Origin: Pseudomonadota bacterium
Lineage (GTDB): Bacteria; Pseudomonadota; Gammaproteobacteria; Eutrophobiales; Eutrophobiaceae
Assembly: GCA_022562175.1 (NCBI GenBank)
Contig: JADFPU010000005.1
Coordinates: 1 to 35,885 of the forward strand
Length of the DNA stretch: 35,885 bases
Reading direction: 5' to 3'
The notes beneath the pieces are model-generated. The model had not been told where the DNA came from. It saw only the letters and a list, made by a program, of their open reading frames with translations, and did no database searches. Numbering within the stretch: position 1 is the stretch's first letter; every line of letters begins with the position of its first letter. This document shows, one piece after another, positions 9,157 to 16,753 of this stretch. A program made the position numbers and the translations under genes.

Positions 9157-10461
9157 ATGAAAACAGTTCTTGATCAACTGATAGAATCTTCTGCTGATCC
9201 GCAAGCAACGGCACTACGTATTGAACGGATGTATGAAGATGCTGAGATACGCAAAAGGATAGAATCTCTGCATACTTCGTTGCTTGCTGATCTGGTTTCA
9301 ATCATCAGTATTTCCAATTTTATGTTTCATTTCCTGTGCCGGCGTCCTCCGGCAATCTCTTTGCTGGGACAAAAATCATCCCCCTGCATCACAGCAAAGC
9401 ACACTATCCCCGATCTGGATGCACTGCGACTGTTTAAGTATCAGGAGCTATTGAAAATCACCTGGATGGATGTGTCCCGGACCTGCGAATACCCTGAGGT
9501 TCTCGACGCACTCAGCACCTTGGCGGTAACAATCGTCAGGCAGGCAATACGGTTGTCTTTATCTGCCGAGTCCTACCATGATGTTGCGGAATCATTGGCT
9601 GTCCTGGCGCTGGGAAAACTTGGCGCGCACGAACTTAATTACAGTTCAGACATTGATCTCATCTTTGTTTCAAGGAATTTGCGTGACCAGGAAGAAGATG
9701 CTCATGCACTGCAAAAAAAACTAACCGATAGTATCAGGTGTTTAAGCCGGACACTTGAAGAGAAGACTGCGGACGGTTTTCTCTACCGGGTTGATTTAAA
9801 ATTACGTCCCTGGGGGCGTAGTGGTCCACTTGTTTTATCGATTGATGACACAGAGTATTATTACGAAGCGAGCTCAGAACCGTGGGAGCGGTTTGCCTGG
9901 ATACGGGCGAGAGCGATCGCCGGCTCAGAAAGCGTTGCATCCGAATTACTGAGCCGCATACGACCATTTGTCTTCAGGCGTTCATTGAGCACAGATGATT
10001 TGGACAGATTTGTGCAAATCAAAAATGATATGAGCAAGGCACGCAAGCGGCATGGGCACTGGAATGTTAAAGTCGGGGAGGGCGGTATAAGGGATATAGA
10101 ATTTTTTATCCAGGTGTTACAGATCGTTAATGCAGCGAAACACAAGCAACTACAGACCACCAATACACTGACTGCATTGGCTAATCTGGAGAAAACGAAT
10201 CTCATTACAGCAGAACAGAGTCAGCAGTTATATGGCAGTTATAATTATTTAAGACGCCTGGAAAATCGTCTGCAAATGATTGATGAACAACAAACTCATG
10301 ACTTGCCGGACGACAAGAAACAACGCTATCTGATCGCACGTTCTTTAGGGGTCAACGGCAGCTCTATGAACGAAGTACTGGATAACTTTGAAAATGAATT
10401 ATTTGCACATCGCTCTATAGCACAAAATTATTTTGATCAGGTGTTACCTCAGGGCGTCTGA
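9157..10461 (+). CDS. glnE: Glutamine synthetase adenylyltransferase/removase, N-terminal half (adenylyl-removase domain)
   Basis: GlnE adenylylates and deadenylylates glutamine synthetase in response to nitrogen supply through PII. The bacterial enzyme is normally one chain of about 950 residues. This 434-residue ORF matches only the N-terminal adenylyl-removase half: nucleotidyltransferase motif ALGKLGAHELNYSSDIDLIF with Asp165 and Asp167, then KLRPWGRSGPLVLS, RPFVFRR and VGEGGIRDIEFFIQV. An in-frame TGA at 9130 leaves ATG 9157 as the only good start, although its Shine-Dalgarno is weak. The stop TGA at 10459 is followed after two bases by the ATG of the C-terminal half in another frame. 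Both active sites look intact, so this is either a natural split with coupled translation or a recent frameshift. Confidence 0.88.
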   Translation: MKTVLDQLIESSADPQATALRIERMYEDAEIRKRIESLHTSLLADLVSIISISNFMFHFLCRRPPAISLLGQKSSPCITAKHTIPDLDALRLFKYQELLKITWMDVSRTCEYPEVLDALSTLAVTIVRQAIRLSLSAESYHDVAESLAVLALGKLGAHELNYSSDIDLIFVSRNLRDQEEDAHALQKKLTDSIRCLSRTLEEKTADGFLYRVDLKLRPWGRSGPLVLSIDDTEYYYEASSEPWERFAWIRARAIAGSESVASELLSRIRPFVFRRSLSTDDLDRFVQIKNDMSKARKRHGHWNVKVGEGGIRDIEFFIQVLQIVNAAKHKQLQTTNTLTALANLEKTNLITAEQSQQLYGSYNYLRRLENRLQMIDEQQTHDLPDDKKQRYLIARSLGVNGSSMNEVLDNFENELFAHRSIAQNYFDQVLPQGV

Positions 10462-10463
10462 CC

Positions 10464-11777
10464 ATGGAACTTAATGCAGCCATAAAGTCGACACTCGACA
10501 GCGCATGGCACAGAGATTCTGCACACGCGAGCATACAACGGTGGCTGGAAGTATGTGAAAAAGAAGGCTGGGGAAATATCCCTGAAAAAATTTCCCTGCT
10601 CGTCAACTTGTTCGGCGCCAGTTGGTATTTCACCCGTCTTGTTTTCTACCGGGGGCGCACAGCTGCGAGTCTTATCGATCAGGCAGAGCCGGATAAACTC
10701 ACTCGATCTGCTATGGCGAACTGTTTTAAGGTGGCGTTAGAACAGGATGATATGGAATATCAGCTGGAACAATTGAGAATGCTCAAAAATGAAACCATGT
10801 TGAATATCCTGATCTGCTACCTCGACAATCAGTTTAATCAGCAACAGACAGAGCAAGCCTTGACAGCATTGGCGGAGCTTAGTCTGGGCATGGTGATGGA
10901 AATATCAGGTCTTCGGTCTGACTCTTCAGGATATCAGCTTGCAGTGTTGGGTATGGGCAGAATGGCGGGTGAAGAGATGACGTTTGGCTCGGATCTGGAC
11001 CTGATCTTTCTTTTTGATCGTCAGTCGATAAGTGATGTTACAAAACTGACAAGAACCATCCAGCGGCTTTTAAGAAACCTTACCTCTCTGGCGCCATTCG
11101 GAACATTTTATGAAGTTGATATGCGCTTGCGTCCACATGGAACAGCCGGGTCTCTGGTCACCTCGACAAATGCATTTCTTGAACATCACCAGCACAGGCG
11201 AGAGATTTGGGAGCGGCAAATGATGACTCGTTGCCGTCCGGTAATAGAAAATGCTGATATAGGAAGAAGCAGCCTGGAAAAAATCATGCCTTATATCTAT
11301 GCAGACTACGATCATGATTATTTGCAACAGGAAATTACAGATATGCGCAGGCTTGTGCAGAAAGAAAAAGGCAGCCTCAGGGATAAATTTGATGTCAAGT
11401 TCGGTAGAGGCGGGATTATGGATATCGACTTCATGACCCATTACTTTCAATTGCGCTATGGACACGAACAGGAATCATTGCAGACATGCAGTACCCGAGC
11501 AGCGCTGGAACAACTTAAACAATTAGAGATCCTTGATGCAGATCACGCGGATACGCTACTTGCAGCCTACGACTTCCTGAAAGGAATCGAGACCCGCCTG
11601 CGTCTGTTTGACATGAAGGCGATCAGCGCCTTCCCGCAGGAACCCGCCGCACACATCCCCCTGGCCCGGGCAATGGGCTACTTCGATGAAGACGAACCCC
11701 ACTTCGTGGAAAAATACCTGTCAGTCTCGGACAAGGTACGGACGTTGTTTAATCATTATTTAAAAGGGATTGATTAA
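10464..11777 (+). CDS. glnE: Glutamine synthetase adenylyltransferase, C-terminal half (adenylyltransferase domain)
   Basis: This 437-residue ORF corresponds to the C-terminal adenylyltransferase half of GlnE, which attaches AMP to a tyrosine of glutamine synthetase. The second nucleotidyltransferase motif is visible as VLGMGRMAGEEMTFGSDLDL with Asp177 and Asp179, followed by YEVDMRLRPHGTAGSLVTS, WERQMMTRCRPV and KFGRGGIMDIDFMTHY. Its frame is shifted relative to the upstream half, and its ATG lies two bases past that stop, with AGGG about 10 bases upstream as a possible ribosome-binding site. One extra base near 10451-10454 would fuse the two frames into one chain of roughly 870 residues. 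No nonsense codon or decay is seen inside either half. Confidence 0.88.
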   Translation: MELNAAIKSTLDSAWHRDSAHASIQRWLEVCEKEGWGNIPEKISLLVNLFGASWYFTRLVFYRGRTAASLIDQAEPDKLTRSAMANCFKVALEQDDMEYQLEQLRMLKNETMLNILICYLDNQFNQQQTEQALTALAELSLGMVMEISGLRSDSSGYQLAVLGMGRMAGEEMTFGSDLDLIFLFDRQSISDVTKLTRTIQRLLRNLTSLAPFGTFYEVDMRLRPHGTAGSLVTSTNAFLEHHQHRREIWERQMMTRCRPVIENADIGRSSLEKIMPYIYADYDHDYLQQEITDMRRLVQKEKGSLRDKFDVKFGRGGIMDIDFMTHYFQLRYGHEQESLQTCSTRAALEQLKQLEILDADHADTLLAAYDFLKGIETRLRLFDMKAISAFPQEPAAHIPLARAMGYFDEDEPHFVEKYLSVSDKVRTLFNHYLKGID

Positions 11778-14022: not shown

Positions 14023-15021
14023 TCACAGTATGTCTTCACAGGGAAAGAATATTTCTTGCGGGATATATTCGAGTATCTGGTCGCGGCAAAACTCCAGCAT
14101 TTCGTTATTGAATTGCTGTTTATATGAAATCATGCCTTTGCTTTCTACCAGGGGCGAAGCAAATAAGGGTTCATCCGGGTAAAGGCGAGACATAGAACGA
14201 AAGAAATCCCGTGGTAAACGAAAACTTCCCAGACTGACAGAATGAATGCTGTCAGGGTCAAGCTGTGTAAATATGTTGTTGAACAGTTGTTTGTATTGTT
14301 CACGAAAGTCATGCTGGTATATTAGTGGATCAAAGCGCAGGCCAATCCGCCAACCTTGTGCCTGCAACTTTTGCATGGCTTCCAGTCGCCGTTGTGGGGC
14401 AGGTGTTTTGTGTTCCAGTGCATCAGCTATCGCCTCAGGTGTAAAACTGTAGGCGATAACAATGTTGTCTAATACCTCTGTTGCCAGAAGAGAACGTATC
14501 TGGGTGCTCTTGGTGCGTATTTCCAATAAGGCTTTTGGGTTACGTGCAAATACCGGCAGAAAGTATTCAACAAAGTGAGTAACCGGTTCAAGTGCAAGAC
14601 TATCGCAATCATAACCCGAGAAAAAATGAATATCCTGACCGGCATTTTCCTGTATGACATCTTCGATGGCAGATTCAAAGCTTTCAAAATTCACAAAAAA
14701 AACATAATGTGCAGACCGATACATACCCTGTAAAAAACAATAGCGGCAGTCATAGATGCAATTAAGCATGTGGGAAAAGTAGAAATTTTGTTTCGCACCG
14801 ATGTTATAAGCCTCAGGCGCCGGCATGACATGGTTCCTGAATTTTTCTGCCAGAATGATGGCAGGGTTATCTTTTTGTAATCTGAAGTTTTGTGCCTTGC
14901 GGTTAAATATCTCTGTGTAGCGCCGGCAAGGAATAATCATTGCCTTGGGAAACCTCGCAACTATTGCAACTGTCCTGGGGTGATGCCTTATTGACTCCTC
15001 GATATATATAGTATCGAACAT
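14023..15021 (-). CDS. Spore photoproduct lyase-like radical SAM protein
   Basis: This 332-residue protein belongs to the SPL family of radical SAM enzymes. The iron-sulfur motif is C88-I-Y-D-C92-R-Y-C95 with the family's spacing C-x3-C-x2-C and the following FLQ, and a C-terminal barrel half contains RIGLRFDPLIYQ. Bacillus SPL repairs the spore photoproduct in DNA using a Cys hydrogen donor in its ACTSD stretch. The equivalent here reads FFSGYDCDSLALE: Tyr137 sits at the donor position and a Cys two residues later (139). Gammaproteobacteria form no spores, so the true substrate is unknown. The gene starts 5 bases after the nucleosidase-like gene, making tight co-expression very likely. Confidence 0.85.
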   Translation of the reverse strand: MFDTIYIEESIRHHPRTVAIVARFPKAMIIPCRRYTEIFNRKAQNFRLQKDNPAIILAEKFRNHVMPAPEAYNIGAKQNFYFSHMLNCIYDCRYCFLQGMYRSAHYVFFVNFESFESAIEDVIQENAGQDIHFFSGYDCDSLALEPVTHFVEYFLPVFARNPKALLEIRTKSTQIRSLLATEVLDNIVIAYSFTPEAIADALEHKTPAPQRRLEAMQKLQAQGWRIGLRFDPLIYQHDFREQYKQLFNNIFTQLDPDSIHSVSLGSFRLPRDFFRSMSRLYPDEPLFASPLVESKGMISYKQQFNNEMLEFCRDQILEYIPQEIFFPCEDIL

Positions 15022-15026
15022 GCTGA

Positions 15027-15851
15027 TTAATCTGCTTTTGGCGACAATGATATTTTATCCAGTTCGCCCTCAAGGTATGTCAGGATATCATTGGCGCGCC
15101 TTATTTTAGTCAACTTTGCTTCAAACAGGCTTTCATCCGGCCTGAGAGTTTGCCAGCGTCTCAATAAACGCTGCAAAATACCTTTCTGGTATTGAGTGAA
15201 GTGCCATCGCTGCAGGCATTGTTCATAGTGTTGCGGAACAGACGTTACTGATTCGAGCCGGGATGACAAAGCCTGTATTTGCTCAAACAATGCATTTATT
15301 TCAGCTGTTTTGTCGGCAATCAGTTCTGATACAAATTTTTCAGCCAGTTTTAGTACCGGTTTTGTCTGATTATCTGAAATTATTTTGAGGCAGTGGATCA
15401 GCTCGGCGGTCGCAAAACGGCTTGCCGTTGCAAAAAAACCTGAACCTTCCATGTCATACATGATCTCATCGTAACTGTTGAGGGCCTTGTCGAGTGTCAA
15501 CAGGCCGGCACAGGATATCTTGCTTTTAAAGATGATTTGCGGGTACCAGATCTGACCATTGCTGGCATCTTCGATACGGTTTGCCAGGACAAGTTGTCCA
15601 ATTGCCAGCGTTTTGTGTCCAGCCACACCGATATTTATCCATGCATCACTGCTTTTGGCATCCAGCAGCATTCTGGCATGCATGGTCGCCGCGATGGAGG
15701 CCTGCTTGCCAATGCCGCTGATGGTCAGTGATATACCCCGTGCTTCGTTCAGGCAGGTATAAAACAACTCGGCTTTTTTGACATGCTTTAGTTGAAAATG
15801 ATGCTGTAACGGTCTGGCCTCGCATTTCAATGCACAGATTATGTGAATCAT
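15027..15851 (-). CDS. Nucleoside phosphorylase/MTA-SAH nucleosidase-fold protein
   Basis: The first 165 residues of this 274-residue protein follow the MTA/SAH nucleosidase fold: IICALKCEARPL (Glu11, matching the catalytic Glu12 of E. coli MTAN), SGIGKQASIAATMHARMLL, INIGVAGHKTLAIGQLVLANRI, YDMEGSGFF (Glu135, ribose-binding Glu174 equivalent) and KIISDN (Asp160, catalytic Asp197 equivalent). All key acids are kept, so hydrolysis of a purine nucleoside is plausible. The domain is shortened in the middle, and a helical tail of about 95 residues is not found in MTAN. It is directly upstream of the SPL-like radical SAM gene. The substrate could be 5'-deoxyadenosine or an adenosylated product, but this is inference. 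Confidence 0.78.
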   Translation of the reverse strand: MIHIICALKCEARPLQHHFQLKHVKKAELFYTCLNEARGISLTISGIGKQASIAATMHARMLLDAKSSDAWINIGVAGHKTLAIGQLVLANRIEDASNGQIWYPQIIFKSKISCAGLLTLDKALNSYDEIMYDMEGSGFFATASRFATAELIHCLKIISDNQTKPVLKLAEKFVSELIADKTAEINALFEQIQALSSRLESVTSVPQHYEQCLQRWHFTQYQKGILQRLLRRWQTLRPDESLFEAKLTKIRRANDILTYLEGELDKISLSPKAD

Positions 15852-15904: not shown

Positions 15905-16753
15905 TTATGTTTGCATGTGTTCATATTCCGAGATCTGACGTGCCAGTAGCGGTTCAAATTTCGAAACGAGTTCATGGTTTTGATATTTCCTTGCACCTTT
16001 CAGGACTATCTGCAGCTTTTCCCTCATTGTGTTAAAGGCTGTTTTTTTATGCTCAACTGAAAGTTCCGGGTCAGATAATATCTTTTCTAGTGCCCTGATT
16101 CTGAATCGATCCATGCCCCAGTATCTGCGTGATAATTGATCGGCATGGCCACCATATTTTATGATCAATTCACTATCAAGAAACAGCACAGGGTAGCGGG
16201 CACAGATCCGCAGCCACATATCATAATCCTCACACACCGGCAATGTTTCATCAAACAACCCGACCTTGGCAAAGACACTGCGATGGATAATTGCTGAAGA
16301 GGGTGAGATTACGCAAAGCGGCAAACAATGTCGAAATATATGGCCACCATATTTGTGGTGTTTTTTCATCTGCTTTACCTGAAGTCCATTCCTTATCCAG
16401 GTCTCATTGGTATGACAGAATAAATAATGCGGATTTTCCTGCAAAGCCTGCATTTGCTGCTGGAGCTTGTCTGCCAACCATTCATCGTCTGAGTCGAGCA
16501 AGGCCAGCCAGTCAGCTTTTGCCATTCGGATCCCTGCATTTCGTGCAGCACTAATCCCCATATTTTTCTGTGATAATAAACGAACCGCCGGATAGTTGGT
16601 TGTTATCATGGCAGCGGTCTCATCCGTTGAGCCATCATCTATCACTATCACCTCAGTGGGCGGAAACGTTTGCCGGAAGACCGAATCCAGCGCGCGTTGA
16701 ATAACAGACACCCTGTTATATGTAGGGATGATTACTGATATGCCTGTGCTCAT
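15905..16753 (-). CDS. Family 2 glycosyltransferase
   Basis: This 282-residue GT2 (GT-A fold) enzyme starts with ISVIIPTYNRVSVIQRALDS and shows the nucleotide-binding VIVIDDGSTDE, then the LLDSDDEW DxD-type metal site, and LFDETLPVCEDYDMWLR with the acidic catalytic region. There are no membrane segments, so it is cytoplasmic or peripheral. Acceptor and sugar are unknown. It stands first in a probable operon with the nucleosidase-like and SPL-like genes (53- and 5-base gaps), with no polysaccharide genes nearby. Its ribosome-binding GGAG (16761-16764) belongs to the terminal repeat of a small inverted-repeat element. Confidence 0.88.
   Translation of the reverse strand: MSTGISVIIPTYNRVSVIQRALDSVFRQTFPPTEVIVIDDGSTDETAAMITTNYPAVRLLSQKNMGISAARNAGIRMAKADWLALLDSDDEWLADKLQQQMQALQENPHYLFCHTNETWIRNGLQVKQMKKHHKYGGHIFRHCLPLCVISPSSAIIHRSVFAKVGLFDETLPVCEDYDMWLRICARYPVLFLDSELIIKYGGHADQLSRRYWGMDRFRIRALEKILSDPELSVEHKKTAFNTMREKLQIVLKGARKYQNHELVSKFEPLLARQISEYEHMQT

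Follow-up and report, generated by a model that had tools for sequence, protein, structure and literature searches.

This study focused on three adjacent genes, encoding a family 2 glycosyltransferase (GT2), a protein of the MTA/SAH-nucleosidase fold (NUC) and a radical SAM protein resembling spore photoproduct lyase (SPL), found in a window of 35,885 nucleotides (the term is used here for the whole stretch of DNA analysed). Together with a short-chain dehydrogenase (SDR) that accompanies them in most other lineages, they are best explained as a single conserved module for biosynthesis or modification. This type of SPL is present in about one in seven of the gammaproteobacterial genomes sampled, nearly always with NUC. 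Searches of open-access papers returned no description of the pair or of the operon, and the GT2-NUC-SPL(-SDR) unit appears to be undescribed in the open literature searched; all of its enzyme families are known.

Gene layout and distribution of the unit

The three genes of the window are as follows.

14023–15021, minus strand: SPL, spore-photoproduct-lyase-like radical SAM protein, 332 aa (wider family Pfam PF20903, 67.5 bits against a cut-off of 27; by Foldseek, the AF2 model resembles SPL crystal structures over its full length, TM 0.83, 15% identity)
15027–15851, minus strand: NUC, MTA/SAH-nucleosidase-fold protein, 274 aa (PF01048, 28 bits; AF2 model, pLDDT 89; Foldseek match to MTAN, E 2e-11)
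15905–16753, minus strand: GT2, glycosyltransferase family 2, 282 aa (PF00535, 125 bits)

Transcription runs in the order GT2, NUC, SPL, with a gap of 53 bases between the first two and of 5 bases between the last two. The two same-direction reading frames described earlier from the sequence are indeed present, on the minus strand and with NUC first. Rfam and promoter/terminator scans of the region returned nothing informative.

Among 96 related genomes, 45 encode NUC, and in nearly all of these a close SPL lies beside it. The pair also appeared in a scan of GTDB genomes, in gammaproteobacterial MAGs (Chromatiaceae-like ones and others) and in one MAG each of Opitutales, SAR116 and Rickettsiales. 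The SPL profile (E 1e-40) matched 53 of 369 gammaproteobacterial genomes, representing 40 of 274 genera and including 49 clear members, as well as 6 of 289 alphaproteobacterial genomes (one of them, G664, being a weaker partial match) and 5 of 241 Verrucomicrobiota. Neighbours were tallied at 56 SPL loci, all outside the window's own family and spanning at least 20 gammaproteobacterial families, marine alphaproteobacteria, Verrucomicrobiota, gut bacteria and Fusobacterium. NUC lies directly upstream of SPL and in the same direction at 47 of these loci (three of the NUCs being degenerate), about 3 kb away with genes between at two, and is not adjacent at seven; five of the seven genomes concerned encode it elsewhere, and NUC is present somewhere in the source genome or record for 54 of the 56. 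In Fusobacterium vincentii the two proteins are fused into one of 623 residues. Pairwise distances of SPL and NUC are correlated across 66 loci (r 0.88, uncorrected for the species tree), which fits joint inheritance, and chance adjacency is ruled out by the same order and strand recurring across tens of families. No relative turned up among the viral contigs scanned, and two records labelled as phage (MT835514 and MT835770) are probably bacterial contigs, carrying bacterial-looking transporter and housekeeping genes.

A survey for conserved pairing had been set as the test of the sequence-only reading, which saw in the two genes an unrecognised two-step pathway. The pair is not confined to the window genome: it turns up across several phyla and tens of families, and as a single protein in Fusobacterium, and an unrecognised pathway is therefore well supported. 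The two-gene scope did not stand, as GT2 belongs to the same conserved unit and an SDR follows SPL in most relatives, both of which had been overlooked. About half of the genomes sampled have GT2 ahead of NUC on the same strand. SPL is followed by a specific SDR, scoring E 1e-48 or better against about 1e-30 for background SDRs, in Chromatiaceae, Methylococcaceae, SAR116, the Rickettsiales MAG, gut contigs, Fusobacterium and many gammaproteobacteria; at 33 of the 56 loci this gene lies directly downstream. The window genome has no specific SDR, its best match (2e-29) being at background level, and the window's family is without one. Gene order is GT2-NUC-SPL-SDR with the sole exception of gut contig L073, where SDR comes first; either SDR or GT2 is missing in some lineages. 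In three genomes (G096, G233 and G398) the unit is split, with GT2 plus NUC and SPL plus SDR kept as sub-pairs within one genome. Such partners suggest that the product is processed further and not merely disposed of.

Folds and active-site residues

Six features within the two proteins bear on their function.

14737–14760, minus strand: SPL [4Fe-4S] motif C88-x3-C92-x2-C95 (CX3CX2C), with Y94 inside it and F96 just after
14602–14613, minus strand: SPL Y137-D138-C139-D140, at the place of the H-donor cysteine of true SPL in the alignment to 4k9r
15819–15821, minus strand: NUC Glu11 codon, the water-activating acid of MTAN-type enzymes, aligned with a Glu of HpnG
15447–15449, minus strand: NUC Glu135 codon, in the Asp-Met-Glu motif (ribose 2'-OH), aligned with the DME of HpnG
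15372–15374, minus strand: NUC Asp160 codon, in the Ser-Asp motif (purine N7), aligned with the SD of HpnG
15054–15341, minus strand: NUC C-terminal helical tail, residues 171–266, six helices in the AF2 model

SPL shares with SplB (TIGR04070; PDB 4fhc/4k9r) the full-length fold, the CX3CX2C cluster and the tyrosine within the cluster motif. It differs in its low identity (about 15%) and in its score of 82.8 bits against the SplB equivalog model, below the 400-bit cut-off. The AF2 model has a pLDDT of 81 and is weak around residues 96–108, next to the cluster. Across 79 distinct sequences, C88, C92, C95, Tyr94, Asp138, Asp140 and Arg169 are constant. Tyr137, at the position of the H-donor cysteine C141 of B. 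subtilis SPL, is found in 78 of them, and Phe96, at the position of the relay tyrosine Tyr99, in 76, so that on this alignment the family of the window SPL lacks the H-donor cysteine and usually the relay tyrosine. B. subtilis SPL no longer regenerates SAM when C141 or Y99 is mutated, and one 5'-dA is then formed per turnover (PMC3742179). Lacking the Cys/Tyr relay, SPL should likewise spend one SAM per turnover, a prediction from its residues that fits a dedicated adenine-removing partner. The 79 sequences contain no fourth invariant cysteine. Cys139 lies two residues away from the donor position, occurs in 72 of them and is missing in seven; it may be a displaced H donor if the alignment is off by two. 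In C. acetobutylicum SPL the donor cysteine is located elsewhere (PMC5368176).

These residues also bear on whether the unit serves DNA or RNA repair or modification, with SPL acting on a damaged or modified nucleobase, NUC as an accessory and GT2 and SDR processing the base. The full-length SPL fold (TM 0.83) would suit such a role, and two loci have suggestive neighbours: gut contig L073 (1235–3333) lies near an uncharacterised TIGR03915/TIGR03916 putative DNA-repair pair, and in Fusobacterium (L075) a UDG-4-like gene is found two genes downstream of SDR. Against it, the conserved H-donor cysteine of SPL is missing, usually along with the second tyrosine, repair enzymes do not usually come with a glycosyltransferase and a reductase, and no repair gene recurs among the gammaproteobacterial neighbours. 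A repair function is the most doubtful of the explanations weighed here, and plain UV repair is unlikely given the residue losses and the occurrence of the genes in a Fusobacterium and in contigs from human faeces.

NUC is a remote member of the nucleosidase superfamily, as judged from its scores against PF01048 (28.1 bits, cut-off 25.1, the match lying mainly in the first 100 residues) and against the MTA/SAH nucleosidase model TIGR01704 (22.6 bits, under the cut-off of 73.8). Its AlphaFold model (mean pLDDT 89) resembles MTA/SAH nucleosidases and futalosine hydrolase in the PDB (E about 1e-11, TM 0.5–0.6); TPR matches in the PDB were dismissed as repeat artefacts. The fold and the catalytic Glu, Glu and Asp are common to NUC, MtnN/Pfs and futalosine hydrolase, whereas the helical tail of about 100 residues and the genetic linkage to SPL set NUC apart from both. 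A role as general MTA/SAH nucleosidase is not supported, given the score far under the TIGR01704 cut-off and the presence of both proteins in Fusobacterium. The three acids named in the sequence-only reading (Glu11, Glu135 and Asp160) are all in place, match the motif residues of HpnG and are unchanged in 76 of 76 distinct homologues, a set defined by scores of at least 100 bits and leaving out degenerate copies by construction. The tail is likewise real, with helices over residues 171–266, but it is a feature of the family and not new to this genome.

Degenerate copies exist outside that set. In two genomes of one gammaproteobacterial genus (G110 and G342), the frame between GT2 and SPL encodes 220–240 residues in which Glu11, Asp-Met-Glu and Ser-Asp are lost and the YPxI strand and the tail are kept; the two genomes share 72.5% identity in SPL and 67.9% in GT2 against 34% in the NUC remnant. 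The NUC of gut contig L073 has a core decayed in much the same way, with the final Asp alone left and the tail kept. Two alphaproteobacterial loci (L185 and L186) show the reverse, a NUC of 195 aa that retains the acids and has no tail. Since core-less and tail-less copies both exist, the halves of NUC are separable and catalysis is not needed everywhere. In two further genomes, G099 and G118, which may both be incomplete, no NUC was seen. Elsewhere, NUC occurs without an adjoining SPL in G018 (contig C1, 315977–316777; L023) and in G030 (contig C335; L035), and in the latter a stop codon interrupts the tail.

The persistence of the tail and the YPxI segment beyond the catalytic core in G110, G342 and L073, with an intact SPL alongside, is what would be expected if NUC were mainly a structural or regulatory partner that engages SPL through its tail, nucleosidase chemistry being secondary or inherited. 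The NUC-SPL fusion would also suit such a partner. This is nevertheless improbable, only a little less so than repair, as the three acids are constant in every full homologue, and L185 and L186 retain those acids and lose the tail.

A proposed adenosylation route

Starting from the observed genes, their order and conservation, the folds, the kept and lost residues and the fusion, the following route is proposed. SPL would cleave SAM to the 5'-deoxyadenosyl radical and add the 5'-deoxyadenosyl group to an unsaturated acceptor; NUC, kept near SPL by its helical tail (or by fusion in Fusobacterium), would hydrolyse off adenine to leave a ribosyl product; SDR, where present, would reduce the ribosyl aldehyde; and GT2 would glycosylate the product. 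For this reading of the whole module, in which we infer every chemical step, the complex and the order of steps, we see somewhat less than an even chance.

Adenosylation is favoured because the unit has the same set of activities as the hopanoid route, where side chains are built by radical SAM adenosylation, adenine removal, reduction and glycosylation (HpnH-HpnG; PMC12583986). HpnH and HpnG, with the glycosyltransferase HpnI, likewise combine a radical SAM/nucleosidase-fold pair, a reduction step and a glycosyltransferase, and the motif residues of HpnG align with E11, DME and SD of NUC, so that the comparison with this pair, made already from the sequence, proves apt. It has its limits, as SPL belongs to the SPL fold family, unlike HpnH, and NUC has a tail of its own, unlike HpnG. 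NUC had no match to the HpnG model TIGR03468 at E up to 1, and a separate HpnG is encoded in the window genome (G000, contig C129; TIGR03468, 172 bits against a cut-off of 187) next to a squalene-synthase-like gene, which rules out NUC as the hopanoid nucleosidase. Two other pathways offer parallels. MqnE and MqnB likewise combine radical SAM adenosylation with subsequent adenine removal by a nucleosidase-fold partner, and the arsenosugar pathway, with radical SAM adenosylation and a glycosyltransferase of TIGR04283, follows the same enzyme logic as proposed here. The likeness of the window GT2 to TIGR04283 is merely generic, since its score of 71 bits is below the cut-off of 182 and other, generic GT2 models score better.

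In the main rival explanation, SPL abstracts hydrogen and frees 5'-deoxyadenosine, NUC clears it and so relieves product inhibition, and GT2 and SDR carry out other steps. 5'-Deoxyadenosine inhibits radical SAM enzymes and needs removal (PMC8102628), and in microcin C maturation a dedicated nucleosidase relieves product inhibition (PMC10491745). Loss of the SAM-regeneration residues predicts stoichiometric 5'-dA, and in 22 of 23 SPL- or NUC-bearing genomes or records searched, the window genome included, no canonical MtnN (TIGR01704) scored above cut-off. That G110, G342 and L073 tolerate a NUC with decayed catalysis is in keeping with an auxiliary role, and these copies fit clearance better than the adenosylation route. 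On the other side, the one exception among the 23, Fusobacterium, has a canonical MTA/SAH nucleosidase besides its NUC-SPL fusion, an MTA-phosphorylase-like protein in the window genome could itself clear 5'-dA, and in the split units GT2 stays with NUC and not with SPL. A nucleosidase of its own is not a usual partner for an ordinary radical SAM enzyme, which also counts against clearance. On balance this explanation is unlikely, though considerably less so than a repair or a structural role.

The adenosylation route draws on the co-directional order in many families and several phyla, the fusion, the sub-pairs of the split units, the invariant acids and MTAN fold of NUC, and an SPL that keeps its cluster and fold but has Tyr137 and Phe96 in place of the relay residues. 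It is harder to reconcile with the decayed NUC core of G110, G342 and L073 and with the NUC-less genomes G099 and G118, as a deadenylation step that is obligatory ought to persist unless some other enzyme takes over from NUC; the tail-less alphaproteobacterial NUCs, the lineages without SDR or GT2 and the presence of Cys139 in 72 of 79 sequences also count against it. The wider proposal, that of a broadly conserved pathway in which an SPL-fold enzyme would adenosylate, a tethered nucleosidase would turn the adenosyl group into a ribosyl group, and this would be elaborated by a reductase and a glycosyltransferase, is held more tentatively still. If true, the SPL family would contain an adenosylating enzyme, and the ribosyl-derived metabolite or modification would belong to a new class. 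With such chemistry, the DNA-repair fold of spore photoproduct lyase would have been recruited for biosynthesis, and the metabolite or modification would be common to distant bacteria. The whole unit consists of three or four small genes and is thus directly testable.

Neighbouring genes and other enzymes of the window genome

Some neighbours are isolated and do not recur widely, among them queCED and genes for TmcA, an EF-G paralogue and a carbamoyltransferase of the NodU type. In alphaproteobacterium G679 (L186, 3513–8135), NUC and SPL are separated by the genes of this NodU-type carbamoyltransferase and of a TPR protein, a possible clue to a carbamoylated or glycan-like product. In alphaproteobacterium G449 (L185, 250–4749), GT2-NUC-SPL lies just downstream of genes which, from reading their sequences, we take to be queC, queE and queD-like (queuosine precursor). 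Three loci of one gammaproteobacterial family (L156, L167 and L169) have the tRNA acetyltransferase gene tmcA followed by GT2-NUC-SPL.

Besides NUC, the window genome encodes the MTA-phosphorylase-like protein, a DeoD (both recognised by reading the sequences) and the HpnG mentioned above. It also has a second, more distant protein of the SPL superfamily (contig C273, 2867–3589; L197, 2378–3775), of about 465 aa, which scores 154 bits against the SPL profile and is not paired with a nucleosidase. Within the window itself, glnE (glutamine synthetase adenylyltransferase) is split at a domain boundary into two adjacent reading frames on the plus strand (9157–10461 and 10464–11777). This looks like a real gene fission, since the glnE of the relative G030 (L035) has a stop codon at the same place; in L051 the gene appears continuous there.
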